Shown here: piece after piece, positions 5,423 to 22,113 of the stretch
Position numbering within the stretch: the stretch's first letter is position 1
Layout: each line of letters begins with the position of its first letter
Assembly: GCA_017857815.1 (NCBI GenBank)
Contig: JAFMCL010000007.1
Span: 1-64,000, forward strand
From: Flavobacteriaceae bacterium
GTDB taxonomy: Bacteria; Bacteroidota; Bacteroidia; Flavobacteriales; Flavobacteriaceae
Reading direction: 5' to 3'
DNA length: 64,000 nucleotides
Notes under the pieces: model-generated
Databases searched by the model: none
Seen by the model: only the letters and a program-made list of their open reading frames with translations
Told to the model about the DNA's origin: nothing
Program-made: the position numbers and the translations under genes

Positions 5423-5604
5423 TAAGTTTTTAAAAGGACTTAGACAAAACAAAAATATAAAGGTTTAATTTATATCTCTAAGAAAAGTAGTTGAATATAA
5501 TTCAACACCTCTAAAACAAGGCTGATCAAAAACTGTTACTTCCTGCTGATCATCAAAGTCTTGCAAAGCTATTAAAAAAAAAAGCATATCATACAGCCTA
5601 TATT

Positions 5605-5838
5605 GAAGAATAAGCAAAAAGTGGTGTTTTGTTTAGTTTGATGCTCTGCTGAGGTCCACCACATGGATCTTATGAAATTGCCCCAAAAGAGTTTCGAGAT
5701 TTATATAAAAATACCGATATACAGTTAAGGCCAAATATTCCAGATAAATTATCTAAAAAGGCAAAAAAATAATCAAAGGATATTATGCACATTGCTCGGC
5801 GCTTGATGGTTATATCAAACGCGACAGTATCATATAAA
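5605..5838 (+). pseudogene. Decayed S1-family sulfatase fragment
   Basis: No open frame survives, but two adjoining frames read as the middle of a formylglycine-dependent sulfatase. From 5605 the frame gives a degraded KSGVLFSLMLC, then TGA at 5650-5652 where the family has Trp or Gly, then GPPHGSYEIAPKEFRDLYKN and TDIQLRPNIPDKLSKKAKK and a stop at 5770. Moving one base at the seven-A run 5763-5769 continues as IIKGYYAHCSALDGYI. GPPH, LRPNxP and YYAHxSALD are hallmark segments of bacterial sulfatases that act on sulfated glycans. The active-site CxPSR region is not found upstream, so the gene is truncated as well as frameshifted. It lies between the receptors and the ThuA gene and probably recalls a once larger polysaccharide locus. 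Confidence 0.65.
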
Positions 5839-6502
5839 AACTAGGGGAAAATTTTTGATGATGTATTAATTTTAGAGGCAACAATACCTGCAAGAAACTG
5901 CTTGTTCTCGTCTACTTTGGAAATCTGAGAGGATTTTCGATTGGGTGTGTATTTGTAAAATTTATCACTAACCCATTAAAACACGTAAATGGTCGAGGTG
6001 GTAAAAAACAGTTCTTTTCTGAATCTTGTAAATGTTTTAAAACTGACACCCACGTATCCTACCGATCATTAATTTGATAGATTCCAACTTTTCATGATGG
6101 ATTGAATCTATGGTAGATCAAAACTCATCTGAGTTTTTGGATTTACTAGATCCAAAACAAAAAAATTTATATGACCTTGTATGATTAATTTGACAAAGAA
6201 TTGAGTGTTGATTCTTCTAAACGCTAAGGATTATTTTAGGAAGGAAATACATTTTTTTTCATCTGTAAGAATGATAAATGACGTATTGATTTTAGAATTA
6301 TTTATCGTAAAAACCTGCCGAATAATTATGCATGGAAAAGAAAAATTTATAACAATAGATTGGTAGAACCAAAAGTAGACTTCATGTGATGTAAGATTAA
6401 GAAATATAATTACTGAAAATTGAATGTAAATATTATGATGTTTTTAGAGTATATTTAAAGAAATAATATTATAGTTAAACATATAAAAATAAATACTTAA
6501 CA
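5839..6502. other. Gene-free stretch, probably further decayed sulfatase sequence
   Basis: No convincing gene. Stops are frequent in all frames. A possible trace of a sulfatase C-terminus (KQKNLYDLV, near 6157-6183) suggests the decay extends this far, but the middle is unrecognisable. A 20-nt stretch near 5856 recurs with about three changes near 6277 and reads NDVLIL-like. I cannot assign either copy. The last 80 bases are very AT-rich and form the upstream region of the ThuA-domain gene. Confidence 0.4.
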
Positions 6503-7264
6503 ATGAACAAATCAATTTTCATTCTTGGCATCTTATTAATTGGTATTTTATTATTTTCTTTCTCGTATGTAAGCAAAGAAATCGAAAATGACTCACTTAA
6601 CGTATTGGTTTTCAGTAAAACTGAAGGGTACAGGCATGATAACATCAAAATAGGTGTTGCGGGATTTAGAACATTAGCGGCCAAGAAAAGCTGGAAAATG
6701 ACTACTACCGAGGATGCTTCTTATTTTAATAATAAATTCTTGTCAAAAGTTGATGTCGTTATTTTCTTTAATACAACTGGAGACGTTTTAAACAGCTCAC
6801 AAGAAATTGCGCTTGAGGCGTTCATAAAAAATGGCGGTGGATTTTTAGGAATTCATGCTGCTGCTGATACAGAATATGATTGGCCATTCTATCAAGAACT
6901 GATTGCAGCTCATTTTGCAAGTCATCCTCGAACGCAACATGCCCGACTGATTGTTCATCAGGAAACGAATCACCCTGCGATTGGTCACTTGGGAAATGAA
7001 TGGTTATTGAGGGATGAATGGTATTTTTTTAAGGAACCCCTTAAATCTCATGCAACTTTGTTGATGGAAGTAGATGACAGTTCTCTTTCAGGTAAAATTC
7101 CATTAATACAAGTACATCCGATTGCGTGGGCACATGAAAAGTTTGGTGGGAGAGCAATGTATACTGGAATTGGACATACTGCTGAACAGTTTTCAGATCC
7201 AGTTTATTTGGAACATATTACCCGAAGTATTGAATGGGTGGGTGAAAATGCTGTAAAAAAATAA
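6503..7264 (+). CDS. ThuA-like domain protein
   Basis: 253 residues with an N-terminal membrane anchor or signal segment (about 5-24), followed by a ThuA-like domain of glutamine-amidotransferase-like fold. Diagnostic segments are NVLVFSKTEGYRHDNI, the strand VVIFFNTTGDVL, GGGFLGIHAAADTEYDWPF, RDEWYFF and the C-terminal GGRAMYTGIGHTAEQFSDP. ThuA proteins are tied genetically to disaccharide utilisation (trehalose/sucrose in rhizobia) and are common in Bacteroidota and Planctomycetota carbohydrate loci. The biochemical role remains poorly defined. The neighbouring GMC oxidoreductase start, FucP-like permease and GH78 enzyme fit a sugar-oxidation setting. A strong inverted repeat follows the stop codon immediately. 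Confidence 0.88.
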   Translation: MNKSIFILGILLIGILLFSFSYVSKEIENDSLNVLVFSKTEGYRHDNIKIGVAGFRTLAAKKSWKMTTTEDASYFNNKFLSKVDVVIFFNTTGDVLNSSQEIALEAFIKNGGGFLGIHAAADTEYDWPFYQELIAAHFASHPRTQHARLIVHQETNHPAIGHLGNEWLLRDEWYFFKEPLKSHATLLMEVDDSSLSGKIPLIQVHPIAWAHEKFGGRAMYTGIGHTAEQFSDPVYLEHITRSIEWVGENAVKK

Positions 7265-7369: not shown

Positions 7370-7561
7370 TTAAGCTACTCTAACGTTAATTGCGCTAGGT
7401 CCTTTGTCAGTTGATTCTAAATCATAACTAACTTTGTCACCTTCATTGATGTCATCAACTAGATTATTTGCGTGTACAAATACATCCTTTTCTCCTGAAT
7501 CTGGAGTAATGAATCCAAAGCCTTTATTGTTGTTAAAAAATTTTACTGTTCCGTTATTCAT
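7370..7561 (-). CDS. csp: Cold-shock domain protein (CspA family)
   Basis: A 63-residue single OB-fold cold-shock protein that binds single-stranded RNA/DNA and loosens mRNA structure. Both RNA-binding motifs are intact: RNP1 as KGFGFI (residues about 13-18) and RNP2 as DVFVH (about 27-31). The start [18 protein letters not shown] is typical of the family and the length is normal. A gene-free AT-rich leader of nearly 290 bases lies upstream, compatible with the long structured 5' UTR that many csp mRNAs use for temperature control, but no specific element can be proved. The gene ends facing the ThuA-domain gene across the inverted repeat. Confidence 0.95.
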
Positions 7562-7847: not shown

Positions 7848-9173
7848 TTAAACGTTTGTAAGGCTTTTTATGTTTGTGTATCCATAATATCCAACAAAAG
7901 CCAAACAGATGGCCGGAAGTATAAATGAAAGGTTTATTTCAGGAATATACCCCAGCAGACTGAGATCATTAAAACCATCACCACCCAAATCTAGAATTGC
8001 TGCTTGCAGGATCGGCATTAGAGCACCTCCCACAATGGCCATAACCAAACCGGCTGAACCAATTTTGACTTCATCACCCATGTCTTTTAATGCAATACCA
8101 TAAATTGTGGGGAACATGATGGACATAAATACAGAAATACCGACCAAAGAAAGGAGTCCCATCATACCGGGAAATATTACAGCTCCGATACTTGCCAAAG
8201 CCCCTCCAACTCCAAAGAACATTAAAACTTTTGGCGGATCAATGTTCTTCATCACAGCAGTGCCAATCCATCTACCTGTTAAAAACAAGACCATAGCTGC
8301 CACGTTATAATTGGTTGCCGTAATATTCCAACCAGTCACCTCGTTTAAATTGTCAACGTAATGGAAAATATAAGTCCAGCACATGATCTGAGAACCTACG
8401 CAAGCTGCTTGTGCGAGAACCCCCATTTTATAACTTTTATTTGTAAATAATTTTGACAATGAATTAGAGACACTCATAATATCTTGTGTATGTGTTTTCG
8501 GAATTTTAGTAAACACAATTATCGACATAATTATTAAAACCAATACGCCTAAACTTAAATAAGGAATACTAATTATGCTTAAATCATTTTCTCGTATTGC
8601 TGCCAATTCATTTAATGATAAAGCATTATAAGCTGTGGAAGAATAATCATCTGAACGGAGCGCAGATAAAACAAAAACTTGCGCAATAATCATTCCGGTT
8701 AATGAACCCACAGGATTAAAAGCTTGTGCCAAATTTAAACGTTGGGTAGCTGTTCGCTTATCTCCTAAAGCTAAAATCAAAGGGTTTGCGGTTGTTTCTA
8801 AAAACGCCAATCCACAGGTAATGACCCATAATGAAATTAAAAAAAAATTAAACTCTTCATAGATTGCTGCTGGGTAAAACAGAAAAGCACCTATTGCATA
8901 GAGCATTAAGCCTAAAATAATTCCAGATTTATAACTAAAGCGCCTAATGAATAGTGCAGCAGGAAATGCCATGAAAAAATATCCAAAATAAAATGCAAAT
9001 TGTACTAAAGAGGATTGAATGTTTGATAATTCAGGCATTACTTTTTTAAATGCCGACACCATAGGATTAGTCAAATCATTAGCAATACCCCATAAAGCAA
9101 ACAATGACGTGATAACAATAAAAGGAAATAATAACTCTTTTGTAACAATCGGAATACGTTCTTTTTTGCTCAA
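7848..9173 (-). CDS. FucP-like MFS sugar:H+ symporter
   Basis: A 441-residue inner-membrane permease of the major facilitator superfamily with about 12 hydrophobic segments. The N-terminal FALWGIANDLTNPMVSAFKK, FGYFFMAFPAALFIRRFSYK and FLETTANPLILALGD segments are typical of the L-fucose/glucose/galactose FHS family (FucP). These proteins import a monosaccharide with protons. The gene is last in a leftward run, 35 bp after the DUF1552 gene. Together with the GH78 enzyme this suggests a deoxy-hexose such as L-rhamnose or L-fucose as substrate, but that is inference from context, because FucP homologues also carry other hexoses. Confidence 0.88.
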   Translation of the reverse strand: MSKKERIPIVTKELLFPFIVITSLFALWGIANDLTNPMVSAFKKVMPELSNIQSSLVQFAFYFGYFFMAFPAALFIRRFSYKSGIILGLMLYAIGAFLFYPAAIYEEFNFFLISLWVITCGLAFLETTANPLILALGDKRTATQRLNLAQAFNPVGSLTGMIIAQVFVLSALRSDDYSSTAYNALSLNELAAIRENDLSIISIPYLSLGVLVLIIMSIIVFTKIPKTHTQDIMSVSNSLSKLFTNKSYKMGVLAQAACVGSQIMCWTYIFHYVDNLNEVTGWNITATNYNVAAMVLFLTGRWIGTAVMKNIDPPKVLMFFGVGGALASIGAVIFPGMMGLLSLVGISVFMSIMFPTIYGIALKDMGDEVKIGSAGLVMAIVGGALMPILQAAILDLGGDGFNDLSLLGYIPEINLSFILPAICLAFVGYYGYTNIKSLTNV

Positions 9174-9208
9174 ATCATATACTTTAAATATTACAAATAT
9201 TATTTTTC

Positions 9209-10555
9209 TTAAAGAATAGAAGCTAATTTCCCTGTACTATCAGAAAAACTTTCTGCTTCGATATCCAATTTATTAAGCATACTTAAAAATAGATTAGATA
9301 AGCGCTCTTCTTTTTCACTGAATTTTGTATAAGCCCCGTGTTTTACTCCTAAATTAGAACCTCCAGCAAGAATTAATGGACAATTTCTAGCATTGTGAGT
9401 TGAGCTACACGCACTTCCATATAGAACAAGTGTGTTTTCCAATAACGAGCTGTCATCCACATCTTTAGTGTTTTTCATTTTATCCATAAAATAAGCAAAT
9501 TGTTTTGCGTACCATTGATCCAAACGTCCCCAATCTCCCCAGTGGCCAGTAGTTTTGTCATGCGAAATTCTGTGATGTCCTTGAAGTCCAAGTGCCATTT
9601 TTGGAAAATTATCGCCAAATCCCATACCGTCTTCCCTTGCCATCATGTAAGTCATGACTCTTGTGGAGTCAGTTTGGAAGCCTAGAATCATTAAATCAAT
9701 CATAGAGCGGACATAATCTTCAGGAGCAGTTGTTGGATCCACATCAAGGTTAATTAAACTTGCATCAAATTCTTCCATTGGTACATCTAACCATTTTTCA
9801 TTTCTCTTTACCTGTTCCTCAACCAGATTTAGAGAACTCAAGTATTCCTCTAGTTTAGCTTTATCGTTTGCTCCTAAACGCTTTTGAAGGCTTTTACTGT
9901 CTTCTAAAACTAAATCAACAATCTTTTTGCCTTGGTGGATGCTTTTTCGCCTTTCATTAGTTGAAGCGCCTCCACTTGGAGAAAAATAGCGTTCAAAAAT
10001 TTCACGTTGTCTGTGCTCTGATGGAAGAGGTTTTCCAGAGGAATTAAATGACAGGGTGGATGTTCTCGATTTGTAGCCCACACCTCCGTCTGTTGACAGT
10101 GAAAGCGAAGGGAAGCGAGTATATTGACTTAACTTTTCAGCAGCCACTTGGTCTACTGAAATACTGTTTTTATATTCACCACGTAAATCACCACCTGTTA
10201 ACCAAGAATCTCCTGCCATGTGCCCTAGGACATTACGACTATAAGGGTGACTTAAGCCTCCTATAATTGACATGTCGCTTCGATAAGGAGATAAAGGGGA
10301 TAATGATTTAGTTAATTTATAATCTGTTCCTTCTTCCATTGGAAACCAATTCCAATTTTTATGATAGGCACTTTCTTTTGGTGGTAATCCAACGCCATTT
10401 GGGAAGTATAAAAAACACAAACGCTTTGGAGGTAAAGGCGTTGCAAGTTTTGAATAACTACTCATTGCCATTCCTTCAAAATAAGGGAGCATACATGCCA
10501 CGCCCAATCCTTTGATAAAGGTGCGACGGTCTAATTGCCAGGGTTTTCTACTCAT
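9209..10555 (-). CDS. Tat-exported DUF1552 protein
   Basis: 448 residues. A twin-arginine signal (DRRTFIKG, residues 9-16, followed by a hydrophobic stretch) indicates export of a folded protein to the periplasm. The body matches DUF1552 in pattern: PPKRLCFLYFPNGVGLPP near the start, a central GGLSHPYSRNVLGHMAGDSW segment, HHRISHDKTTGHWGDWGRLD, and a C-terminal LVLYGSACSSTHNARNCPLI. The fold resembles alkaline-phosphatase/sulfatase-like proteins of the DUF1501/DUF1552 group, but no activity is established. The ATG overlaps the TGA of the upstream DUF1592-type gene by 4 nt, so the two are translationally coupled. The pairing is common in Planctomycetota and Verrucomicrobiota and less usual in Flavobacteriaceae. 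Confidence 0.85.
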   Translation of the reverse strand: MSRKPWQLDRRTFIKGLGVACMLPYFEGMAMSSYSKLATPLPPKRLCFLYFPNGVGLPPKESAYHKNWNWFPMEEGTDYKLTKSLSPLSPYRSDMSIIGGLSHPYSRNVLGHMAGDSWLTGGDLRGEYKNSISVDQVAAEKLSQYTRFPSLSLSTDGGVGYKSRTSTLSFNSSGKPLPSEHRQREIFERYFSPSGGASTNERRKSIHQGKKIVDLVLEDSKSLQKRLGANDKAKLEEYLSSLNLVEEQVKRNEKWLDVPMEEFDASLINLDVDPTTAPEDYVRSMIDLMILGFQTDSTRVMTYMMAREDGMGFGDNFPKMALGLQGHHRISHDKTTGHWGDWGRLDQWYAKQFAYFMDKMKNTKDVDDSSLLENTLVLYGSACSSTHNARNCPLILAGGSNLGVKHGAYTKFSEKEERLSNLFLSMLNKLDIEAESFSDSTGKLASIL

Positions 10556-13500
10556 ATTCCAAATATTTTATTGTACCAAGTTTGTTTTTTTTTATAAAAT
10601 GATGGGCTTAAAACGATCTGTTCTATGACCGTTTTAAAACGAAAATCATTATCAATGACCTCTGCTACAATGTTATTAATCTCTTCCTCATCAGCAAAAC
10701 CAACATCACGGCCAACTGCATAAGCAAAAAGGTTTTCCACCAAAGACCTCGTAAATTCTTCTTTTTTTAGTTCTAAAATATAATCTTTAATTCCCTCTAT
10801 TCCTTCAACTTCAGTCCCATCTGGTAATTTTGACTTTGAATCAATTGGCTTTTCTTTTGAGGTTAATTGATACCGTCCAACCGCATCATAATTTTCAAAC
10901 ACGACTCCAAAAGGATCAATTTTATGATGACAATCCAAACAAGAGGTTTTGTTTCTGTGCAAAAAGAGTTGTTCTTTTAGTGTCAGATTTTCAAAACCAG
11001 GGGTTTCTGGATCTAATTCGGGTACATTTGCTGGCGGTGGTGGAGGGTGGTCTCCTAGTATCTTTTCTTTTAACCACACAGCCCGTTTTATTGGATGCGC
11101 TTGAACACCATCTGAGTGTCCACTCAAAAAAGAGCCTTGTGAGAGCAAGCCACCTCTTTTCTCGTTTTCTGAGAGATTCACTGGACGAAATGCATTGCCT
11201 TTAACACCTTCAATCCCATAGAACTCGGCAAGATTCTGATTTAGCATGGCAAAATCTGAATCAATAAAATTCATAATACTCATGTTGTTTTTTAGTACAT
11301 GATGGATAAAACTATAGGTCTCCTTAAACATATCTTCTTTTACAAAACGTGTAAAATCTTCATAAGATTCGACATCTGTATCCATGCTTTTGTGTCTGTC
11401 TAAACGCAACCATTCAAAGGCAAAGGAATTGACCATTTGAGTTATTTTGGGGCTATTGACCATGCGATCAATTTGTTCTGGCAATTGGCTATGTAAATCT
11501 CCACTTGAAGCTAAAGCTGTGAGAGTTAAATCTGGAGGCGAATTCCACAAAAAATAAGACAACTGAGAGGCCAAGTAAAATTCATCCTCTGATTTTTTTG
11601 ATTCATCCGTTTCGGGCTCAAATATGTAAATAAAATTAGGAGAACATAGTACAGCGACTAAAACTTCTTTAATACCAACCTCATAACTTTCAAAATCTTT
11701 TTTAATGCTTCTCCAGAAATCCATATATCGATTTAATTCACCTGAATTAAGAGAACGTCTAAAAGCACTTTCTATAAAACGGGTCAGGATTTCTTCGGTA
11801 TAAGCTTCAACATTGGTCTTGTTTGGTGAATCGAAAAATATATTTGTGTAACTTTTTGGCGGCCAAATAGGATGATAAGGTGCCTCAAATTCTACTGATT
11901 TTATAAGCAGTGGTGGCCCTTTAAAACGACTTTCTTTAACCAAATGATTATTCCATACCCCTACGGTTAAAATATTGGCCAAGTCTCCACTTACGTTGGC
12001 GCTTTCCAAAGGAATAGGGAAATTCTCTAATCTACCCTTAAATTCAAAAGTTTGATATTCCCCCAATGGCAACGTAACCTCTGGCGATTTTCCAAATGTT
12101 TTATAATCCATTCCATCATCTGTTCTTGTGCCCACAAACGCTTCAATTGATGGGTTAACTGATGTATATTTTGAATTGTCTCTTTCAGCTTCTTCTTTTA
12201 GTATCCCCGGTAATGGATCGTCTTCCGGCAAAGGAGTAATTACTATATGGCTAAATCCAACAAAAAACTTTCCACCGATGGAACCTTTATGTAGCCCTTC
12301 AGATAGATAGGCCAGTGTGACTGGTGTTGTGATCTTATCCTTGTTTTTTAATGCTTTATTCATGTGCAAACGTTCGCCAACTCTTCCCTCTTTGATTCCT
12401 TCAATAAGATTTATTTCATAAGAGGGCATCGCATCATCTGATACATACGGATGAACCAGATCTACCTGATATATTCCAGCTTTTGGTATATTGTAACTGA
12501 ATTTTGTTTTTACATTATCTGCAACATTAATAGGCAATAACCAACGGTTGTTTTTTAAGATAAAATCTTTAGGTGTTTTTAGGTCATTAGCCGAGATATA
12601 AATAGCTTTTGAAGATTTTGGTGCAGGTTTTTTCTTTCTTAAGTCAATTAAACGCTCTACTGACATAGAATTATAACCTTTTGAAGCTTCTACTCTGAAA
12701 ATGAAATCTCCTGTTCTAGGAAAATCTTCTTTAATTAATAGCTTTAAATTAGGAGACGGCCCTTGCCACGATTTAGGCGTTAATTCTTTGGCAGGCAGTG
12801 CCGAGTTTAATATCAGCCCTTCTTTCACGATAGTGTAGCGATTACTTGCAGAACCCCTCATGCCAATTCCTATCTTGTTCTTTAACATTGTTAAAGAATC
12901 ATTTTCTTGGATTCTTGAATTTCGAATTGGCTTTCCCTGATGATTTAATATTTCTACCATTAAATCTTCATTACTTATTGGAGCGGTTTGATAACCTCTA
13001 TATTCAGCACCGGTAGTTCCATCTCCGATCCCTTTCCCTAATGAAACCTTGTAACGTTTTGACTTTGGTCTATCTCCAAAAACAATGGCTTTATCCAAAG
13101 CTTCTCGAGCTATTTTTTGATAATAATCAATATGTAGTGCAGAGGTTTGAAGTACATTCCCATTATTGCTAAATCCTAATTTTGATTTTCCATCATCAGG
13201 TAAAACATCTCCAAAGTTTACAAAAACACCGAGCAATTCATTTAAGGTATTGGTATATTGCTTTTTGGTCAATCTCCGCATTACACCTTTATTATCTTTT
13301 TGTTTAGCTACAGCTGCTTTTTTTAAATTAGTAGACAACCAATCTACAATAGCACGACGGTCTATATCTTTTAGTTGTGTTTCGTCCTCCGGAGGCATTT
13401 CTCCTAAATTAATCACGTCTAATGCGGAGTGCCATCTTTCTGCATCGGGTCCATTGATCATGTCCCAGCTCAAAACATCTAAGCGCATGTCACCTTTTTG

Positions 13501-14178
13501 CTTGTCTTCTCCATGGCATTTAAAGCAATGCGTCTCCATGATTGGTTTAATCTTGTTTTTAAAATACAAAGCTTCTCTCGAAGTCGAATCTATGGTACTA
13601 TTAATAACTAAATACTCAGCATCTCCATTATCAACCCCTAATACCGTTTTCATTCCCGAAGGCATGTACTTGGTTAAATAATTTGCCCCATGAGTTAGAG
13701 AGCCCCCATAATGTCCTGCAAGTGATAATAGAGAAACATTTACGAATAAGAACACCTTGTAAAAACGTGTTACGTTGTTTGGTTTATTAGATGATTTTTT
13801 TTGACGCAGTACAACCAACCATATGCAAATTAAAGCCGTAAACCAGCCCAGCCATTTGTGAGTATTCAATAGTTCATCGTTATAATTTCCACTTGAAGCC
13901 AAAAGAAAACCCAATATAATTGTTGGAATAATACTGATAACCGAAAACCAAAGTAAAATGTTACATGCAGAATTTAAATTTAAATCTGGGCGAAAATCAT
14001 TGATTATTTCCATTAGAAACAACACAATCAATGCGCCTATGGGAAGATGAAGAATTATGGGGTGAAACCTACCTAGAAAAAACACAAAAGTATTTTCGAC
14101 TTCGCCAGCTAATGGAATAAAAAGCAGCCCAAATAATAGAATGGTAAAAACAACTGCAATTGATAAACTATTTTTCAT
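10552..14178 (-). CDS. Membrane-anchored multi-domain cytochrome c protein (DUF1587/1592/1588/1585/1595 type)
   Basis: A 1208-residue protein from the ATG at 14178. A TTG three codons earlier is less likely. The N-terminus has about five membrane segments (to about residue 155), beginning with a DUF2231-like FHPIILHLPIGAL. Next is a Planctomycete-type cytochrome c motif, CFKCH near residue 218 within ETHCFKCHGEDKQKGDMRLD. Then come the linked domains usually named DUF1587, DUF1595, DUF1592, DUF1588 and DUF1585, including MRRLTKKQYTNTLNELLG, AFRRSLNSGELNRY, LSYFLWNSPPD and RGGLLSQGSFLSGHSDG. A second heme motif, CLDCHH, lies near residue 1079 in SCLDCHHKIDPFG. The protein likely carries two c-type hemes on the periplasmic side and passes electrons in an oxidation of unknown substrate. 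It is coupled to the DUF1552 gene. The substrate is unknown. Confidence 0.87.
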   Translation of the reverse strand: MKNSLSIAVVFTILLFGLLFIPLAGEVENTFVFFLGRFHPIILHLPIGALIVLFLMEIINDFRPDLNLNSACNILLWFSVISIIPTIILGFLLASSGNYNDELLNTHKWLGWFTALICIWLVVLRQKKSSNKPNNVTRFYKVFLFVNVSLLSLAGHYGGSLTHGANYLTKYMPSGMKTVLGVDNGDAEYLVINSTIDSTSREALYFKNKIKPIMETHCFKCHGEDKQKGDMRLDVLSWDMINGPDAERWHSALDVINLGEMPPEDETQLKDIDRRAIVDWLSTNLKKAAVAKQKDNKGVMRRLTKKQYTNTLNELLGVFVNFGDVLPDDGKSKLGFSNNGNVLQTSALHIDYYQKIAREALDKAIVFGDRPKSKRYKVSLGKGIGDGTTGAEYRGYQTAPISNEDLMVEILNHQGKPIRNSRIQENDSLTMLKNKIGIGMRGSASNRYTIVKEGLILNSALPAKELTPKSWQGPSPNLKLLIKEDFPRTGDFIFRVEASKGYNSMSVERLIDLRKKKPAPKSSKAIYISANDLKTPKDFILKNNRWLLPINVADNVKTKFSYNIPKAGIYQVDLVHPYVSDDAMPSYEINLIEGIKEGRVGERLHMNKALKNKDKITTPVTLAYLSEGLHKGSIGGKFFVGFSHIVITPLPEDDPLPGILKEEAERDNSKYTSVNPSIEAFVGTRTDDGMDYKTFGKSPEVTLPLGEYQTFEFKGRLENFPIPLESANVSGDLANILTVGVWNNHLVKESRFKGPPLLIKSVEFEAPYHPIWPPKSYTNIFFDSPNKTNVEAYTEEILTRFIESAFRRSLNSGELNRYMDFWRSIKKDFESYEVGIKEVLVAVLCSPNFIYIFEPETDESKKSEDEFYLASQLSYFLWNSPPDLTLTALASSGDLHSQLPEQIDRMVNSPKITQMVNSFAFEWLRLDRHKSMDTDVESYEDFTRFVKEDMFKETYSFIHHVLKNNMSIMNFIDSDFAMLNQNLAEFYGIEGVKGNAFRPVNLSENEKRGGLLSQGSFLSGHSDGVQAHPIKRAVWLKEKILGDHPPPPPANVPELDPETPGFENLTLKEQLFLHRNKTSCLDCHHKIDPFGVVFENYDAVGRYQLTSKEKPIDSKSKLPDGTEVEGIEGIKDYILELKKEEFTRSLVENLFAYAVGRDVGFADEEEINNIVAEVIDNDFRFKTVIEQIVLSPSFYKKKQTWYNKIFGI

Positions 14179-14577
14179 AAATAGCAATTATATTTAATCT
14201 AAGCTTTTGAATAACAACTGATTTATAAAAAAAAAGAGTTCTATTAATCCACTTCATGCTTACATTTTCTAAATGCAGTTTTATTGCGTAAATACCTGAA
14301 TTAAAACCGACATCACTTTGATCACGATTTGCTAGAGCCGCAAAATGAAAACTATTTTTATCCCTTTTAAAAGCATTCAGAATAATTAGATTTAACAAAT
14401 CAAAAATCACGATTAATCTGTATTTTAACAAAAAGAATACCTTCATTATATTAACTATATATATGTATAAATGTAATAAAAAATTTATAATTAAGTTTAA
14501 GCGCTTGTAGGAAGTTAATTCCCTAAGTTACTATCATGTCCCATTCAATATTTTGATTGTGAATTTGGATTTCAAAT
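14179..14577. other. Intergenic region between the cytochrome gene and the rhamnosidase
   Basis: About 400 AT-rich bases. A minus-strand frame of 92 codons (14168-14446) exists but overlaps the start of the cytochrome gene, is biased to Ile/Leu/Asn as expected of AT-rich noncoding DNA, and resembles no family I know. I treat it as probably noncoding. The left part should hold the promoter for the cytochrome-DUF1552-permease run. A short AATTTG/CAAATT symmetry lies just downstream of the rhamnosidase stop. Confidence 0.4.
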
Positions 14578-17295
14578 TTATTGTTTTTGTTTAATTTTAA
14601 AATAATAATCCCCAGATTGTAATTTGGCTTTGAATATACCTTCTTTTTGTTCCAAAAAGTCAACGCCATCAGTACGGAGCAAATTCTTGGCGTTTATTCT
14701 TAAAAGTGCAGTGCTATTGGGAGGAACTGTTACTTGATAAGCAACTACTCCATTGTTTTTTACCCAAGAACTCATTATCACTCCAAAAGGGCCATTGTGT
14801 TTTGCGCTAAAACTTTCTAATCCCTCCACAAAATGAGGTTCCAACAAAATATTTTTAAAACCAGGATTTTGAGGATCTGGATTTATTCCCCCCAAAGCTT
14901 TATAAAACCATGCACTTATTTCACCAAACATAATATGATTTCTTGACATTGCACCTTTTCTGCTTTCATCTACTTTCCAATCCTCAAAAAGGGTTGTAGC
15001 GCCGCTTTTAATCCAAGCTCCCCAAGAGGGAAAATCTTCTTTTGTTGCAAGCTTGTAAGCTAGGTCGGCATGTCCATTTTCGCTTAAAGCGTTTAGAATG
15101 GTTTTGCTTCCTAATAAACCAACATCAATGTGGCTGTTGTCTAACAATACTCTCTTCTTTAAGTTTAAAGCGACCTTTTCTCTATATTCTTCTGGTACAA
15201 TTCCCCAATATAGGGCAGTGCTCAACTCCGTTTGAAATCCACTCCCATAAATCGATGTTTTTGGGTTGAAATAAAGTGAATTGATTTTCTCTTTTATCCG
15301 TTTTGCTAACTCAGAATATTTAAGAAAATCCTCCTCTTTTCCAAACATTTTTGCAGCTCTCGAAAGTATCGTAGCATCTATGTAGTAGTATATGGAAGAG
15401 GTAAATTCTTTTGGTGTTTTAGATTTTACGGGAACCCAGTCTCCCAAGCCCCAATTGGTTATGTATCCGGGGCTTATTTCTGTAATGTGATCTACATATC
15501 TTTTGATGCTGGAGTAACAGTCTCTTAAAAGTTTATCGTCTCCATAAAAAAGGTAGGTATTCCATGGAATGATAGCGATACTACTGGTCCAGTCAGGTCC
15601 GTTTGCCCAATGATATCCCCATCCACTAGTGGGTATGATGGCAGGGAGAACCCCATTGGGTTGTTGTTCATCGCGATGATCGGCTAACCATTTTTCGTAA
15701 ACAGTAATTCCATCAAAATTAAAAAGTCCCATTTCAATTGCTATATGAGCGTCTCCAGTCCATCCATTCTTTTCACGCTGAGGACAATCAGTTGGGTATC
15801 CATATAAATTTGATAAATAGGCAGCATTGGTGGCAGTCCAAAGTTTATTGATCAAAGGGTTTGAACTGCTTATTTCTCCTTTGGGAGGAACAGCACTGTG
15901 CATAAAAACGCCAGTGAGACTCTCTAATGTTAATTCGATTGGTTTACTGCTCGCCACTTCAATGTATTGAAAACCCTTATAATTAAACTTGGGCGCAAAA
16001 GTTTCTGTTATTCCGCCATTTAAGGTGTAGATGTCTGTTTGAAAGGGGTCAGAGTCATCGGTAGGGCGATAGTGAACAATAATATTCGATAGGTCTATTT
16101 CTCCAGTCTCATCCAATAATTCGGAGTGCTTAACTCTTAACACGGTTCCGGATTCACCATTTACTTTAATTTTTGAAATTCCTGCGATATTTCTGCCCAA
16201 GTCAAAAATATATTGTTGCGGACTTATTTTATTCATTTTAATTGGACGGAATTCCTCTACGTGCTTTATTGGGTGAAGTGCTTGTGACACAATATTTTTT
16301 GATGGAGCTGAAGTATTGATGCTATTTTTCCATTTGGAATCATCAAAACCAAATGTATTCCACCCATTCTGTTCGAGTTGGGCATTGTAATGTTCTCCAG
16401 TATAGATACTGTTAAACACAAGAGCTCCCAAAGAATTTTTCCAATTACTGTCTGAGACAATCGTTTCTTCAGAACCGTCTTCATAGGTGATTTTTAAGTC
16501 CATACAGAATTTTGGTCTGTCCCTCCAAGATGCCTTATCAAAATGCCAAACAGCTTTTGACTGATGATTAAACCATCCATTTCCAAGTAAAACTCCTATG
16601 GCGTTGTTTTCATTTAACAGCGCAGTAACGTCATGAGTTACATACAAGTTTCTTCGGTCAAAACGAGTGTATGTTGGGTCAAGCTGGTGATCCCCAACCC
16701 TTTCACCATTTATATATAACTCAAACAAACCAGCAGCGGTTAGGTATGCCCTAGCTTTTTTTATTTTTTTTTGAGCGCTAAATTCATATCTGAAATAAGG
16801 ACCCTCCTTTTTGTTTTTATCCCAACTGTCAGAGATCCATGAGCCTTTCCAGTTAATAATGTCCATCATTCCCATCTCAAAACTTGCAAGCTTTTCGCTT
16901 TTCATTTTTTGGTTGTTTTTGTCCCATACCTTTAACAACCAATAATATTTTTGGTAGGGTTTAAGTTGTTTTCCATCATAAACAACCATTTGGGTAGAAG
17001 AATTGATCTTTCCTGTATTCCAGTAAGACCCATTGCCTGCTGCAACTTTAATAGAATCTGTTCCGACAGAGATGTCATATGATTTTTGAATGGCTCCTCT
17101 TCGTGGATCATTAATTTTCCACGTTAACCTCGGTGCTTTGACATCAAGACCAATTGGGTTGACCAGATGCTCACTTTTCAAATCATAGACTGACGCTTGA
17201 TTGCTTTGAGAATAAACATCAATAAAGAAACATAGAAAAACAATTATTTTTAAACTGATTTTATTCACTAAAACTTTTTTTGTTTTTTTTGACAT
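14578..17295 (-). CDS. GH78 alpha-L-rhamnosidase
   Basis: A 905-residue exported glycoside hydrolase releasing terminal alpha-L-rhamnose from glycans or glycosides. The signal segment covers about residues 10-30, after a lysine-rich start. The order is the usual one for family 78: an N-terminal Ig-like domain (VNPIGLDVKAPRLTWKI), a carbohydrate-binding beta-domain (AYLTAAGLFELYINGERVGD), a linking beta-sandwich, and an (alpha/alpha)6 barrel with DCPQREKNGWTGDAHIAIEM near residue 505, which holds the presumed general acid Glu. Then comes GATTLFEDWK near residue 770, with the presumed base Glu, and a C-terminal beta domain. The length is normal. It lies upstream, in the same direction, of the cytochrome/DUF1552/permease run and gives the best clue to that locus's substrate. 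Confidence 0.93.
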   Translation of the reverse strand: MSKKTKKVLVNKISLKIIVFLCFFIDVYSQSNQASVYDLKSEHLVNPIGLDVKAPRLTWKINDPRRGAIQKSYDISVGTDSIKVAAGNGSYWNTGKINSSTQMVVYDGKQLKPYQKYYWLLKVWDKNNQKMKSEKLASFEMGMMDIINWKGSWISDSWDKNKKEGPYFRYEFSAQKKIKKARAYLTAAGLFELYINGERVGDHQLDPTYTRFDRRNLYVTHDVTALLNENNAIGVLLGNGWFNHQSKAVWHFDKASWRDRPKFCMDLKITYEDGSEETIVSDSNWKNSLGALVFNSIYTGEHYNAQLEQNGWNTFGFDDSKWKNSINTSAPSKNIVSQALHPIKHVEEFRPIKMNKISPQQYIFDLGRNIAGISKIKVNGESGTVLRVKHSELLDETGEIDLSNIIVHYRPTDDSDPFQTDIYTLNGGITETFAPKFNYKGFQYIEVASSKPIELTLESLTGVFMHSAVPPKGEISSSNPLINKLWTATNAAYLSNLYGYPTDCPQREKNGWTGDAHIAIEMGLFNFDGITVYEKWLADHRDEQQPNGVLPAIIPTSGWGYHWANGPDWTSSIAIIPWNTYLFYGDDKLLRDCYSSIKRYVDHITEISPGYITNWGLGDWVPVKSKTPKEFTSSIYYYIDATILSRAAKMFGKEEDFLKYSELAKRIKEKINSLYFNPKTSIYGSGFQTELSTALYWGIVPEEYREKVALNLKKRVLLDNSHIDVGLLGSKTILNALSENGHADLAYKLATKEDFPSWGAWIKSGATTLFEDWKVDESRKGAMSRNHIMFGEISAWFYKALGGINPDPQNPGFKNILLEPHFVEGLESFSAKHNGPFGVIMSSWVKNNGVVAYQVTVPPNSTALLRINAKNLLRTDGVDFLEQKEGIFKAKLQSGDYYFKIKQKQ

Positions 17296-17709: not shown

Positions 17710-20700
17710 TTGAAAAAGCTTGTTAAACTAACCCTTCTATTGTTTTCCAGTCTTGTAATTGGACAACAAACGCTAACTGTGTCATTGACTCAAGAAGTGC
17801 CTGTTGCTGAAAATGGCCTTTCGATTAGCAATTTTTCACTGAATGGCTACAACGATTCCACCACATATAAAGTTTCGCTTTCTTCTACAGGGAATGCAAA
17901 TGGAACTTTTAGCGTTCCTACAACTACTGGTTTGACTAGAGATTTTGGATACAACTCTTGGACAAACATAACGAGCGTAAACTTTATTGGTACACCAACA
18001 AATATTGAAAACGCATTGAACTCAATAAAATTAAATACAACACTAACTGAGGGTGCTCAAATAATCCTTTCAGTGGTGATAATCAATCAGACCACAAACA
18101 GTTATTTTAATCCATCAAACGGACACGTTTATAAGTTTGTTTCAGGTCAGACAACATTTGCCAATGCAAGAAGTGCTGCACTTGCATCTACTTACGAGGG
18201 GGTATCTGGATATTTGGTAACCATCACTTCTGCAAACGAACAAGCATTTATAAATTCAAAGACAAGTGCTAATAACATTTGGACTGGACTATCAGATGAA
18301 GGTTCGGAAGGGGTTTATAAATGGTTAGACGGGCCAGAAGCGGGAACAGCAATTAAGACGACAAGTGGCAATGTAGCTGGACAATATAACAACTGGTGTA
18401 GCGGTGAACCAAATGATTATAGCAGTGGTGAAGACTATATGGTTACCAGATGGAATGGAGGAAATTGTTGGAATGATTTTGGACCACCAGCATTTCCTAA
18501 CCATTCAAGTATTGGAGGTTATTTGATTGAATATGGTGATTGGAGTGATCCAACAAATTCAACTTTTTCATCTACGGTTAATACTCAAATAACTTTTACA
18601 CAAGTTAAAACTGATCCTATAATTGCATTTGAAAATGTAACTAAGGTTTATGATGAGAACGATTTTAACCTTTCTGCAACATCATCTAGCACTGGAGCTT
18701 TTACCTATACAATATCAAATACGAGTATAGCTCAAGTTAATGGCTCAACAGTCACTATTGGGAATGTTGGTGCTACTATGGTTATCGTAAATCAAGCTGC
18801 TGACACCAAATACAATGCAGGATTGGCTACAATGATGCTCACCATCATTAAAGCCAATCCAGTAATTATATTTAATGATATTACTAAAAATTATGAAGAC
18901 CCGGATTTTAACCTTTCCGCTACATCGAGTAGTACTGGGGCTTTCACTTATACTGTTTCTAATACCGAAATTGGAACTTTAAGTGATACAAGCGTTAGTA
19001 TTAACGGAGCTGGAACTTCAATTGTAACTGTAAACCAAGCCGCTGACAGTAATTATAATTCTGGAACTACTACCATGACGCTTAGGGTAAATAAATCTAA
19101 TCAAATAATAACATTTTCGGACACAATCAAGACCTATGGATCAGGAAATTTTGATCTCACTGCAACCTCAAGTAGCACAGGAGCTTTCAGTTTTAGCATA
19201 ACAAACAACGCTATAGCTTCGGTAAGTGGAAGTACTGTAACTATATTAGCTGTTGGATCAACACTTGTAACTGTAAATCAAGCTGCTGATAGTAATTATA
19301 ATTCTGGATCAGCGACGATGACGCTTACCATAATTAAAGCGAATCCTTCCATAACCTTTAGTAATTTAGATAAAAACATTAATGTCCCAGATTTTAATCT
19401 TTCCGCATCTTCAGAGAGTACAGGAGGATTCACCTTCAGCATAACAGACAATACCATAGCATCAGTAAGTGGAAGTACCGTATCTATTCTTGCTGTCGGA
19501 GCTACTTTCGTTACTGTAAATCAAGCAGCAGATAGCAATTATAATTCTGGAACGGCTACAATGACACTTAGGGTTAGAATGAATCCTACGGTTATCTTTA
19601 GTAACATAACCAAGACCTATGGGGATCCAGATTTTGTTGTCACTGCAACATCAAATAGTTCTGGAGCAATGATCTATGCGGTTTCAGATTCAAGTATAGC
19701 CTCTATTACTGTTTCTTTAATTAGTATCAATGAGGCAGGGACTTCGATTGTAAGCGTAAATCAAGCCGCTGCTGGTAATTTTAATTCTGGGACAGCCACA
19801 ATGACACTTTTGGTTAACAAGGCTGACCCAATAATAGCTTTTATTGATATAACCAAAACTTACGGAGACCTTGATTTTAGTTTGTCTGCGACTTCAAGCA
19901 GTACGGGAGAATTCACCTTTTCTATAGCCGACAGTTCCATTGCAACAGTAATTGGGAATTCGGTTACGATTGCTGGAGTCGGTTCTACGGTTGTAAAGGT
20001 AAATCAGTCTGGAGACAATAATTACAATGCTGCCTCAAAAACAATAATATTAACGGTTAAGAAAAGAGATCCAGTTATTAATTTTGAGAATATAATCAAA
20101 GAAGTTAATGATCCTGATTTCAATCTTTCCGCGACATCAAACAGCAATGGAAAGCTAATTTATAACATCATAAATGTTGAAACAGCAACATTGTCTGGAA
20201 CTTTGGCGCATTTAAATAATCCAGGGGAAACTGTAATTACGGTTTATCAAGAGGCAACTCAAACAGACAACGCTGCAACTTCATCAATTATTCTTAATGT
20301 GATTGAAAGGTTAGATAGTGACAATGATGGCGTATCAGACTTATATGATTTAGATGATGATAATGATGGAATTTTGGATACTGTTGAATCTAAAGACGAT
20401 CTTGATGAAGACGAACTAACCAATGCTTTAGACCACGATAGTGATGGGGATGGGTGTTTTGATGTTCTTGAGGCAGGATATGTAGATGATGACCAAGATG
20501 GTAGGGTAGGCAACTCGCCCGTAGAGGTAAACAACGTTGGATTGGTTCAAAATGTATTTGCCTATGACGAACCTTTAGATTTAGACGAAAATGGAAATTA
20601 TGATTTTTTAGATTTTGAATCAGAAATTAATTTCAAAGAATTCATTCTACCCAATGAAATTAGTTTTGAGCTAAATCAAACTGTTGTATTAGAAATTGAA

Positions 20701-21171
20701 ACAGAAAATTCTTTAAAATTAAATTATCAATGGCAAGAAAGTACTGATCAGGAAAGCGGCTTTGTAGACATTAGTGACGATGGTAATTCACTTACTCTTA
20801 ATCCAAAATATTTTGATGACGGAAACTTTTACAGAGTTATTATAAGCAGGCCATCCTATGTGTGTGATACTCCATTTATATCAAATAGCACTAAAATATT
20901 ATATGACAATGTATTTATTCCGAGTGGTATTTCTCCCAATGGTGATGGTGTTAATGACTTTTGGGAAATTATTGGTTTAGGAAATTTCCCAAATTCTAAT
21001 GTAATAATTTTTAATAGGTTAGGGGTTAAGGTTTTTGAAAGTAATGACTACAAAAATGAATGGAATGGTTTTTATAGGGGAAGTTCACTTCCAGATGGAA
21101 CCTACTTTTATCAAATTAGTTTGAGTGAAAACGAAATTAAAAAAGGATTTATTTATGTTAAAAGAAATTAG
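17710..21171 (+). CDS. Secreted adhesin-like protein with C-type lectin, tandem repeats and T9SS type-B sorting domain
   Basis: A 1153-residue surface protein. Translation appears to start at TTG: an in-frame stop lies three codons upstream and the signal peptide MKKLVKLTLLLFSSLVIGQQ begins exactly there, with no nearby ATG. Residues about 130-280 form a C-type-lectin-like domain (GYLVTITSANEQAFI, IWTGLSDEGSEGVYKWLDG, NNWCSGEPNDYSSGEDY, CWNDF). Seven repeats of about 80 residues follow (about 302-868). Next are Asp-rich thrombospondin-3-like calcium-binding repeats (DSDNDGVSDLYDLDDDNDG), an Ig-like segment, and a C-terminal sorting domain from IPSGISPNGDGVNDFWEI to the end, typical of gliding/T9SS type-B substrates. 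The next two genes encode PorP/SprF and OmpA proteins, the usual partners of such substrates. Confidence 0.92.
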   Translation: MKKLVKLTLLLFSSLVIGQQTLTVSLTQEVPVAENGLSISNFSLNGYNDSTTYKVSLSSTGNANGTFSVPTTTGLTRDFGYNSWTNITSVNFIGTPTNIENALNSIKLNTTLTEGAQIILSVVIINQTTNSYFNPSNGHVYKFVSGQTTFANARSAALASTYEGVSGYLVTITSANEQAFINSKTSANNIWTGLSDEGSEGVYKWLDGPEAGTAIKTTSGNVAGQYNNWCSGEPNDYSSGEDYMVTRWNGGNCWNDFGPPAFPNHSSIGGYLIEYGDWSDPTNSTFSSTVNTQITFTQVKTDPIIAFENVTKVYDENDFNLSATSSSTGAFTYTISNTSIAQVNGSTVTIGNVGATMVIVNQAADTKYNAGLATMMLTIIKANPVIIFNDITKNYEDPDFNLSATSSSTGAFTYTVSNTEIGTLSDTSVSINGAGTSIVTVNQAADSNYNSGTTTMTLRVNKSNQIITFSDTIKTYGSGNFDLTATSSSTGAFSFSITNNAIASVSGSTVTILAVGSTLVTVNQAADSNYNSGSATMTLTIIKANPSITFSNLDKNINVPDFNLSASSESTGGFTFSITDNTIASVSGSTVSILAVGATFVTVNQAADSNYNSGTATMTLRVRMNPTVIFSNITKTYGDPDFVVTATSNSSGAMIYAVSDSSIASITVSLISINEAGTSIVSVNQAAAGNFNSGTATMTLLVNKADPIIAFIDITKTYGDLDFSLSATSSSTGEFTFSIADSSIATVIGNSVTIAGVGSTVVKVNQSGDNNYNAASKTIILTVKKRDPVINFENIIKEVNDPDFNLSATSNSNGKLIYNIINVETATLSGTLAHLNNPGETVITVYQEATQTDNAATSSIILNVIERLDSDNDGVSDLYDLDDDNDGILDTVESKDDLDEDELTNALDHDSDGDGCFDVLEAGYVDDDQDGRVGNSPVEVNNVGLVQNVFAYDEPLDLDENGNYDFLDFESEINFKEFILPNEISFELNQTVVLEIETENSLKLNYQWQESTDQESGFVDISDDGNSLTLNPKYFDDGNFYRVIISRPSYVCDTPFISNSTKILYDNVFIPSGISPNGDGVNDFWEIIGLGNFPNSNVIIFNRLGVKVFESNDYKNEWNGFYRGSSLPDGTYFYQISLSENEIKKGFIYVKRN
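18613..20313 (+). repeat. Seven tandem in-gene repeats of about 243 bp
   Basis: Each unit encodes about 80 residues of the form NPxIxFxxITKTYGDPDFNL, then SATSSSTGAFTYTIS, VxGSTVTIxxVG, and TVNQAADSNYNSGTATMTL. Units two to four are closest, also at the DNA level. The last unit is the most diverged. The pattern fits Ig-like stalk repeats that lift the lectin domain from the cell surface. Such arrays can change copy number by recombination. Confidence 0.9.
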
Positions 21172-22111
21172 AATCTCTTTTAAAGATCTATCTATTTTCT
21201 GGATGATTCTTGTCATGACCTCCTCCATGCTTCACAGTCAGCAAGAGGCTTCTTTTTCGTTGTACATGTTTAATCACCAGCTAATAAACCCTGCCTATGT
21301 TGGTGCACAAGACTATACTCAACTAACAATGACAAATCGCTCTCAATGGCAACAATTTGAGGGAGCACCGATAACGCAAGCGTTTAGTATAGGTCATAAA
21401 TTTCGATCTAAAATCGCATTGGGAGCATCAGTAGTTCACGATAAGATAGGTCCACTCAAAAACACAAGTGCCTCTCTAGATTTTTGCTATCACCTCAATC
21501 TTAATGACAAGAATTTAAAATTATCTCTTGGTCTGAAATTTACGAAAAGGTATAATTCTCTTGATTACAGTATGATAAATCCTTTGGAAGATTTTGATAT
21601 CACTTTCTCAACACAGCCCGAAAATGATTCTAAAATTAATTTTGGAACAGGGTTTTATCTGCACAACGAAAAATTTTATGTAGGGGTAGGGATACCCTAT
21701 ATATTAGAAGATGATTTAGTTGGACTAAAAAGAAACTATTACTTAATAACAGGAGGCTTAATTAAATTAAATAATTCTTTTCAGTTAAAGCCTAGTTTGC
21801 TTTTTCAAGCAACACACGGAAATGATTTAATTTACGACAACAGTGTTTTGGTTGTCTTTAAAAACAGGGTCTGGCTGGGCCCACAATACAGAGCTACAGT
21901 AAGCAGTTTTCTTCCCAATCAGAAGAAATCAGGATATTATGGAGTAATTGCAGGAATCCATTTAAATAAAAACATGAGTTTGGGTTATGCCTATCAAGGA
22001 AGCTTGGCAAACCAAGCCATTGGAATAACTAACACTTCTCATGAAATTTTATTGCGCATTCACTTGGTTCCTAATGTTAAAGGGTTTATGCGTTCACCAA
22101 GATTGTTTTAA
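21155..22111 (+). CDS. PorP/SprF family type IX secretion-associated membrane protein
   Basis: 318 residues from the ATG at 21155. A GTG ten codons upstream also opens the frame, but the hydrophobic signal segment (IFWMILVMTSSMLHSQ) fits the ATG better. The ATG lies 17 nt inside the upstream adhesin gene. The mature start, QQEASFSLYMFNHQLINPAYVGAQDY, is the classical PorP/SprF opening, followed by a beta-barrel with repeated FNLGLGLKF-like strands (LSLGLKFTKRY, FGTGFYLHNEKFYVGVGIPYI). Family members are outer-membrane proteins that help present or anchor particular type IX-secreted proteins, each usually encoded beside its client. Here the client is plausibly the lectin-repeat protein just upstream. 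Confidence 0.92.
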   Translation: MLKEIRISFKDLSIFWMILVMTSSMLHSQQEASFSLYMFNHQLINPAYVGAQDYTQLTMTNRSQWQQFEGAPITQAFSIGHKFRSKIALGASVVHDKIGPLKNTSASLDFCYHLNLNDKNLKLSLGLKFTKRYNSLDYSMINPLEDFDITFSTQPENDSKINFGTGFYLHNEKFYVGVGIPYILEDDLVGLKRNYYLITGGLIKLNNSFQLKPSLLFQATHGNDLIYDNSVLVVFKNRVWLGPQYRATVSSFLPNQKKSGYYGVIAGIHLNKNMSLGYAYQGSLANQAIGITNTSHEILLRIHLVPNVKGFMRSPRLF

Positions 22112-22113
22112 AC

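Follow-up and report, generated by a model that had tools for sequence, protein, structure and literature searches.

A cytochrome–DUF1552 pair with a dedicated FucP-family permease in Flavobacteriaceae and its possible role in processing fucose-containing glycans

What does a membrane cytochrome of the planctomycete type do when it is encoded together with a DUF1552 protein and a FucP-family permease? Planctomycetota and Verrucomicrobia have an abundance of cytochromes with PSD and PSCyt domains, together with their DUF partners, for which no function is known. We analyzed such a locus in a Flavobacteriaceae bacterium (assembly GCA_017857815.1). The DNA under study, hereafter the window, covers 64 kb from the start of the 87-kb contig JAFMCL010000007.1, from a 2.2-Mb genome that is 99.6% complete. 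Genes for a glycoside hydrolase family 78 (GH78) rhamnosidase, a PSD-type cytochrome, a DUF1552 protein and a FucP-family permease lie there in a common orientation on the minus strand. An initial annotation, made from the letters of the sequence, had taken all four as one oxidative route for a rhamnose- or fucose-containing glycan. We propose a smaller core: a two-protein periplasmic unit of cytochrome and DUF1552 with a dedicated FucP permease, which would process a decorated fucose glycan or a fucose derivative. We consider this proposal evenly poised between right and wrong.

A scan of GTDB genomes yielded 80 named loci, which together with the window gave 81 for comparison. The cytochrome and DUF1552 genes are adjacent in 78 of these, more often than expected by chance, and at least one of the three loci lacking adjacency is a contig end; 62 of the 78 adjacent pairs overlap or sit within 30 nt of each other. 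In the window, the overlap between the cytochrome stop and the DUF1552 start is exactly 4 nt; the permease gene comes 35 nt downstream of DUF1552. A FucP-like permease stands immediately beside the pair in 25 loci. Other neighbors are S1 sulfatases (17 loci), PQQ_2-type lipoproteins (16), diheme proteins of the MauG/cytochrome c peroxidase (CCP) type (9) and hybrid two-component regulators (6). GH78 adjoins the pair in only three loci, all from close relatives: the window, L042 and, with another gene order, L085. The unit is therefore the pair plus the permease, and GH78 is a local addition; as a core part of the system, the role that the initial annotation had given it, we rejected it.

The same loci show how the surroundings of the pair vary. 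In Wenyingzhuangia, Flavicella and Maribacter (L066-L069, L106), a hybrid two-component regulator, the cytochrome, DUF1552, FucP, a PQQ protein and sulfatases are found together; the cytochromes are longer (1304-1333 aa), and most of these operons contain a MauG gene. Wenyingzhuangia aestuarii, a species known for fucoidanases, has the MauG/sulfatase version of the locus. In marine single-cell Bacteroidetes (L060, L062), the pair ends a run with MlrC/M81, OsmC, cupin, short-chain dehydrogenase/reductase (SDR) and ATP-binding cassette (ABC) genes, and an M81 gene also directly precedes the pair in the planctomycetes L105 and L107. In two Cytophagales, L100 (11400-13739) and L101, the gene immediately after DUF1552 encodes a PSD1/PSCyt2 cytochrome, an arrangement that joins both planctomycete cytochrome types. 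A sugar ABC importer adjoins the pair in planctomycete relatives. DUF1552 is carried by 18 of 399 Flavobacteriaceae genomes and by the window genome in a single copy; among 395 genomes drawn from the phylum, the window genome alone has a match above the family cut-off. In a DUF1552 tree, the Bacteroidota are split into two groups; planctomycete sequences and a small number from proteobacteria lie between these groups or within them. This is consistent with, though not proof of, transfer between phyla. Streamlined marine relatives that nest beside the window lineage have no permease.

The cytochrome carries the full domain set of the planctomycete-type PSD/DUF1592 family: a DUF2231 membrane domain, PSCyt1, PSD3 (DUF1587), a β-sandwich region resembling carbohydrate-binding modules (CBMs) of families 6 and 35, PSD5, PSD4 (DUF1592), PSCyt3 (DUF1588) and PSD2 (DUF1585). 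Both Pfam and the sequence thus bear out the large membrane protein with two CxxCH motifs and DUF1592-type domains that had been noted initially. Across 39 aligned homologues from several phyla, the two cysteines and the histidine of the first motif are invariant, as are a Met-Pro-Pro downstream of it and the second CxxCH. From these motifs and the MauG-type partner of some relatives, we infer that the protein binds c-type haem and carries electrons. Five histidines of the N-terminal DUF2231 domain are invariant among 12 Bacteroidota proteins and could hold a b-type haem; four planctomycete cytochromes inspected are shorter and have no DUF2231. The AlphaFold2 model has a mean predicted local distance difference test (pLDDT) score of 81. 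Part of it matches CBM6/CBM35 chains in Foldseek (probability 1.00), and by secondary structure this part must be the strand-rich middle of the model. Whole-model Foldseek against the PDB gave no overall match beyond the CBM-like part, the C-terminal helical region with the second haem motif had no match among the hits listed, and a PDB sequence search with the cytochrome profile returned no solved structure. Jelly-roll hits to toxins and viral capsids were set aside for their low template modeling (TM) scores. The c-haem motifs and CBM-like domains support the periplasmic location that had been suggested from the sequence.

The DUF1552 (HXXSHH family) partner matches PF07586 over its full length with 269.5 bits against a curated cut-off of 30, and is 57-95% identical to 47 homologues. 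It was rightly described as a twin-arginine translocation (Tat)-type protein: its motif reads RRTFIKG, and RRxF is retained in 77 of 79 homologues. An AlphaFold2 model built from 48 sequences has a confident core (mean pLDDT 69, predicted TM-score 0.75). All 50 of its 50 best Foldseek matches in the PDB are sulfatases or other enzymes of the alkaline-phosphatase superfamily, with probabilities up to 1.00 and TM-scores of about 0.4. The protein is therefore tentatively predicted to have a sulfatase/alkaline-phosphatase-type fold, and its earlier placement as a redox protein is not supported. The formylglycine motif [CS]xPxR is absent from the five close homologues checked and, by inspection, from the window protein; for this reason we do not file DUF1552 as an S1 sulfatase. 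A PDB sequence search with DUF1552 returned nothing; in the open-access literature searched, two papers use the term DUF1552, and the one consulted states no function for the family.

To which sugar does the permease point? It passes the NCBIfam fucP model TIGR00885 with 481.6 bits (cut-off 280.4), in agreement with the initial call, and its closest solved structure is Escherichia coli FucP (3o7q, E 6e-73). In a permease tree, 20 of 26 DUF1552-linked permeases form one clade with a support of 98/100, separate from the permeases of fucose catabolic clusters; four others belong to a distant group that occupies the same slot. Asp46, the proposed proton site of E. coli FucP (PMC4882079), is replaced by asparagine in the dedicated clade, which has aspartate at position 43. 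Among 13 permeases of fucose clusters, 9 keep Asp46 and 4 also have Asp43/Asn46. The substrate or coupling of the dedicated permease may therefore differ, and we assume only its membership in the FucP family. That one genome has two FucP types suggests substrates or couplings that are related but different.

A metabolic pathway stands next to the pair in one locus. In L043 (the same locus as L022), a continuous run encodes the PSD cytochrome, DUF1552, FucP, a PQQ protein, a UxaA/GarD-family dehydratase, an SDR, a fumarylacetoacetate (FAA) hydrolase and an Amidohydro_2 protein of the fuconolactonase type. The order FucA, B, C, F, G has been described for the non-phosphorylating L-fucose pathway (PMC11199699), and a UxaA/GarD-family dehydratase is documented to act on D-arabinonate, with weak L-fuconate activity (PMC6336799). 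The nearest match of the FAA hydrolase is L-2,4-diketo-3-deoxyrhamnonate hydrolase, an enzyme of the L-rhamnonate pathway. The amidohydrolase is closest to 4dlf, and NCBIfam gives it a single match, to L-fucono-1,5-lactonase, with a score under the equivalog cut-off. Since both the lactonase and the hydrolase models match below their equivalog cut-offs, we assign the pathway of the window genome by homology and clustering. Elsewhere, in other genomes, this cluster adds an SDR above the L-fucose dehydrogenase cut-off (NF052481), a FucP paralogue, a RhaM-type mutarotase, a flavin mononucleotide (FMN)-dependent dehydrogenase of the lactate-oxidizing type and GH29 fucosidases, and several DUF1552-bearing genomes retain the full canonical fucose cluster.

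The window genome itself has a non-phosphorylating L-fucose pathway, with FucA-, lactonase-, dehydratase-, FucF- and FucG-type genes on contigs 15, 18 and 52. Orthologues of the four L043 pathway genes are clustered on contig 18 (57-80% identical). An L-fucose dehydrogenase homologue (68% identical), a second FucP (55% identical to the window permease) and a GH29 gene lie together on contig 15. The fucose and rhamnose pathways have late steps in common, and the genome has GH106 and RhaM-type genes beside its pathway copies: on contig 18 (L131:5428-14247), a divergent GH106 rhamnosidase adjoins the dehydratase-SDR-FAA-lactonase cluster, and contig 52 (L133:3-11503) holds second FAA hydrolase and fuconolactonase-type copies, a RhaM-type mutarotase, an AraC regulator, and SusD-like and beta-helix genes. 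The latter locus is possibly a polysaccharide utilization locus for fucose or rhamnose. Judged by these gene contents, L-fucose is most likely the substrate class of the system.

To quantify the link, we compared 18 DUF1552 carriers with the 381 other genomes among the 399 Flavobacteriaceae, handling relatedness to genus level. The dehydratase, called at E <= 1e-150, is present in 17 of 18 carriers and in 120 of 381 others (p 8e-8). A close orthologue (71% identity or more) occurs in 10 of 18 carriers against 5 of 381 others, with an odds ratio (OR) of 94 and a p of 5e-12 that is descriptive only, because the 71% threshold was picked after the list had been seen; at genus level the counts are 8/14 and 3/223 (p 2e-9). 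Alginate lyase PL7, taken as a control for generalist users of polysaccharides, gave 11/18 against 91/381 (OR 5.0). GH78 behaves similarly to this control (14/18 against 171/381, OR 4.3, p 0.006). The dehydratase link holds within PL7-positive (p 1.4e-7) and PL7-negative (p 2.7e-4) genomes. The co-occurrence check thus went in favor of DUF1552 with the dehydratase and showed a weak association for GH78. The link to a deoxyhexose that the initial annotation had drawn is upheld by the FucP family, the L043 operon and the pathway co-occurrence.

In the mechanism we propose, the unit would bind a fucose-containing oligosaccharide or a decorated (for example, sulfated) fucose in the periplasm, where DUF1552 would supply a metal-dependent active site. 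The cytochrome would take up or supply electrons, via its c-haems and the His-rich DUF2231 membrane domain, toward the respiratory chain. A fucose-like product would then enter through the dedicated FucP paralogue and be degraded to pyruvate and lactate by the cytoplasmic FucA-FucB-dehydratase-FucF-FucG route, and the GH78 of the window lineage would be a neighbor that trims a rhamnose-bearing glycan rather than a part of the core. Electrons might pass from the sugar to the haems, or the haems might feed an oxygen-dependent step, which has been considered for Cbp2D (PMC8981238); a further option is that they act with another partner, for example MauG. A bolder form of the proposal, which we regard as possible but doubtful, is that DUF1552 and the PSD protein together represent a carbohydrate-active redox enzyme of a new class. 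In this form, DUF1552 would have a sulfatase-type fold in which the metal site has been rebuilt from His and Cys residues, and it would be coupled electrically to the CBM-bearing membrane cytochrome; the enzyme would oxidatively remove a decoration or open a fucose residue in the periplasm before the product enters via the dedicated FucP.

Several observations weigh against a fucose-processing unit of this kind. The fucose pathway genes of the window genome sit on other contigs, and in many loci (Echinicola, Allomuricauda/Flagellimonas, streamlined marine genomes) the pair has no sugar gene beside it. A generalist lifestyle is a partial confounder of the co-occurrence across genomes, as the alginate lyase control indicates, and the permease has asparagine at the proposed proton site. 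The mean pLDDT of the DUF1552 model is only 69, and profile comparison (hhalign) of DUF1552 with sulfatases or with DUF1501 gave no significant match, so that the fold assignment rests on the structure model; DUF1501 itself aligns to sulfatases at 77% probability.

These points leave room for other readings. The pair might transfer electrons or provide a co-substrate to another periplasmic oxidase, such as a lytic polysaccharide monooxygenase (LPMO)-like, MauG-like or mono-oxygenase enzyme; the PSD protein would be a conduit, as proposed for Cbp2D, and DUF1552 only a docking or metal-delivery partner. Cbp2D offers a precedent, since its X183 domain donates electrons to LPMOs (PMC8981238). MauG/CCP genes are present in 9 loci, and the DUF2231 domain and the haem motifs suggest conduction. 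However, no oxidase gene is common to all pair loci (MauG is present in 9/81), the constant partner is DUF1552 rather than an oxidase, and there is no candidate oxidase nearby in the window; we consider this reading unlikely. Somewhat less probable still is the rhamnose version, in which all four cassette genes, GH78 included, serve a single oxidative route for a rhamnose glycan. GH78 is on the same strand and has stayed next to the pair in L042 as in the window and, with another gene order, in L085; the genome has a GH106 beside its dehydratase cluster, several GH78 genes and a RhaM-type gene, and the FAA hydrolase resembles a rhamnonate-pathway enzyme. But GH78 is missing from 78 of the 81 pair loci, its association across genomes is no better than that of the alginate lyase, the permease is a FucP, and a gap of 399 bp separates the cytochrome from the GH78 gene upstream.

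We find it very unlikely that the pair oxidizes L-fucose (or L-rhamnose) to the lactone in the periplasm, with the permease importing the acid or lactone and the cytoplasmic L-fucose dehydrogenase being replaced. The L043 operon, which encodes the dehydratase, SDR, FAA hydrolase and fuconolactonase-type protein and, unlike canonical clusters, has no second SDR (FucA) or mutarotase, would agree with such a replacement, as would the distinct clade of the permease. Yet the window genome has an L-fucose dehydrogenase orthologue beside its other FucP and GH29, which means that the pair does not merely fill in for a missing dehydrogenase, and we rejected a substitution of this kind as the general case; the canonical clusters of several carriers argue in the same direction, and the predicted sulfatase-type fold is not known as a dehydrogenase fold. 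An equally small chance attaches to a general periplasmic role in envelope, phosphate or sulfate ester, or stress chemistry, with sugar genes nearby because the carriers are polysaccharide generalists. The many lineages in which the pair lacks sugar genes and the enrichment of alginate lyase, an unrelated marker, speak for it, but the link to the close dehydratase orthologue is far stronger and persists in genomes with and without the lyase, the FucP clade is specific to the pair, and sugar ABC genes adjoin the pair in planctomycetes. Our preferred reading is the periplasmic unit acting on a fucose glycan or derivative.

The features of the window are collected in the table below. The cytochrome open reading frame spans 1211 codons (10552-14187, minus strand), with the ATG at 14178 as its likely start. 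The GH78 gene is real, and its solved relatives are 6i60 and 3w5m. The initial annotation was correct in placing a ThuA gene nearby, but this gene is on the opposite strand, a cold-shock gene intervenes, and a ThuA gene adjoins the pair only in L042; we excluded it from the cassette. Between a TonB receptor gene and ThuA lies about 1 kb of AT-rich, frameshifted sequence (5454-6502), which looks like an insertion or decayed element because the equivalent gap in L042 is only about 430 bp. A glucose-methanol-choline (GMC) oxidoreductase, said to be close by, was not found by Pfam among the large proteins of the window and was ruled out as a cassette partner. The genome has three GMC matches, all on other contigs, and the nearest relative, L042, has one GMC gene about 3 kb past ThuA, beyond the ThuA and TonB genes. 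Contig 55 (L039:5266-11374) encodes a GMC oxidoreductase, gluconate-2-dehydrogenase subunit 3, GH20, glucosamine-phosphate isomerase/PIG-L and a sodium symporter, and is likely an oxidative amino-sugar locus. The description of the locus as free of SusCD holds for the window, where the 64 kb contain no SusD and thus no canonical SusCD polysaccharide utilization locus, but SusC/SusD-type genes are present elsewhere in the genome. Upstream of GH78 and the cytochrome, a search for the promoter consensus of Bacteroidota gave no match, which is uninformative, and an Rfam scan gave no hit. Composition shows no sign of recent horizontal gain, as the GC content of the cassette, overall and at third codon positions, equals that of the neighbors. 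Next to the cassette (17710-24258), a type IX secretion cargo with a C-type lectin domain, PorP/SprF and an OmpA-family protein are encoded in a row; a PorP/SprF-like neighbor is seen again in L079 and L099.

Table 1. Positions of the cassette genes, their motifs and adjoining genes in the window.
Feature	Position	Strand	Basis or remark
GH78 alpha-L-rhamnosidase	14578-17295	-	all five GH78 Pfam domains
PSD-type diheme membrane cytochrome	10552-14178	-	seven Pfam domains above cut-off
First CxxCH haem-binding motif, CFKCH	13513-13527	-	in PSCyt1
Second CxxCH haem-binding motif, CLDCH	10927-10941	-	in PSCyt3
DUF1552 (HXXSHH family) protein	9209-10555	-	PF07586 E 6e-80; Tat-type signal
Twin-arginine motif of DUF1552, RRTFIKG	10508-10528	-	sequence
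FucP-family major facilitator superfamily permease	7848-9173	-	TIGR00885 fucP above cut-off
Cold-shock gene	7370-7561		between ThuA and permease
ThuA	6503-7264	opposite to cassette	convergent

In Flavobacteriaceae, the pair is rare (18/399) and single-copy in the genomes in which it is found; it has a named transporter as its neighbor and, at one locus, a named pathway as well. Its carriers include cultured Algibacter, Tamlana, Maribacter and Wenyingzhuangia, which makes a long-standing question testable. If our proposal is true, the turnover of algal fucans, which is a large flow of carbon in the sea, would gain a redox step. The initial annotation had considered the system undescribed. This view has to be qualified: He et al. 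described conserved PSCyt gene neighborhoods in Verrucomicrobia and Planctomycetota in 2017 and, from CBM fusions and sulfatase neighbors, proposed a carbohydrate role (PMC5615132), so this kind of system is already known, and Cbp2D, a presumed relative with DUF1587, has been examined as a candidate electron donor for LPMOs (PMC8981238). As far as the open-access literature searched shows (subscription journals may hold earlier work), the new elements are the link to the fucose pathway, the dedicated FucP clade, the predicted fold of DUF1552, the presence of CBM-like domains in a cytochrome for which no CBM is annotated, and, in Bacteroidota, the fusion with DUF2231.

Compared with known systems, the window cytochrome shares its PSD/PSCyt domain types with the PSCyt3/PSD pairs of He et al., who found that PSCyt3 genes usually adjoin a particular family of unknown genes, like the pair here; the main text of that study does not name DUF1552 (PMC5615132). 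Cbp2D of Cellvibrio japonicus is likewise a multidomain cytochrome: it combines a CBM and DUF1587 with a small c-type cytochrome (X183) and a further CxxCH domain, but its CBM is a CBM2, it has a YceI-like X158 domain, and no DUF1552 partner is described for it (PMC8981238); homology to the window cytochrome is indicated by the common DUF1587 annotation. E. coli FucP (3o7q) is a whole-length homologue of the window permease. Glu135 is conserved in both, whereas Asn43/Asp46 of the E. coli protein corresponds to Asp43/Asn46 in the window permease. S1 sulfatases and the alkaline-phosphatase superfamily may share the predicted fold of DUF1552 and differ from it in the [CS]xPxR motif and at the profile level. 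Finally, the non-phosphorylating L-fucose pathway is described without a periplasmic cytochrome/DUF1552 unit, while the same enzyme types are encoded with the pair in the L043 operon and elsewhere in the window genome (PMC11199699, PMC6336799).

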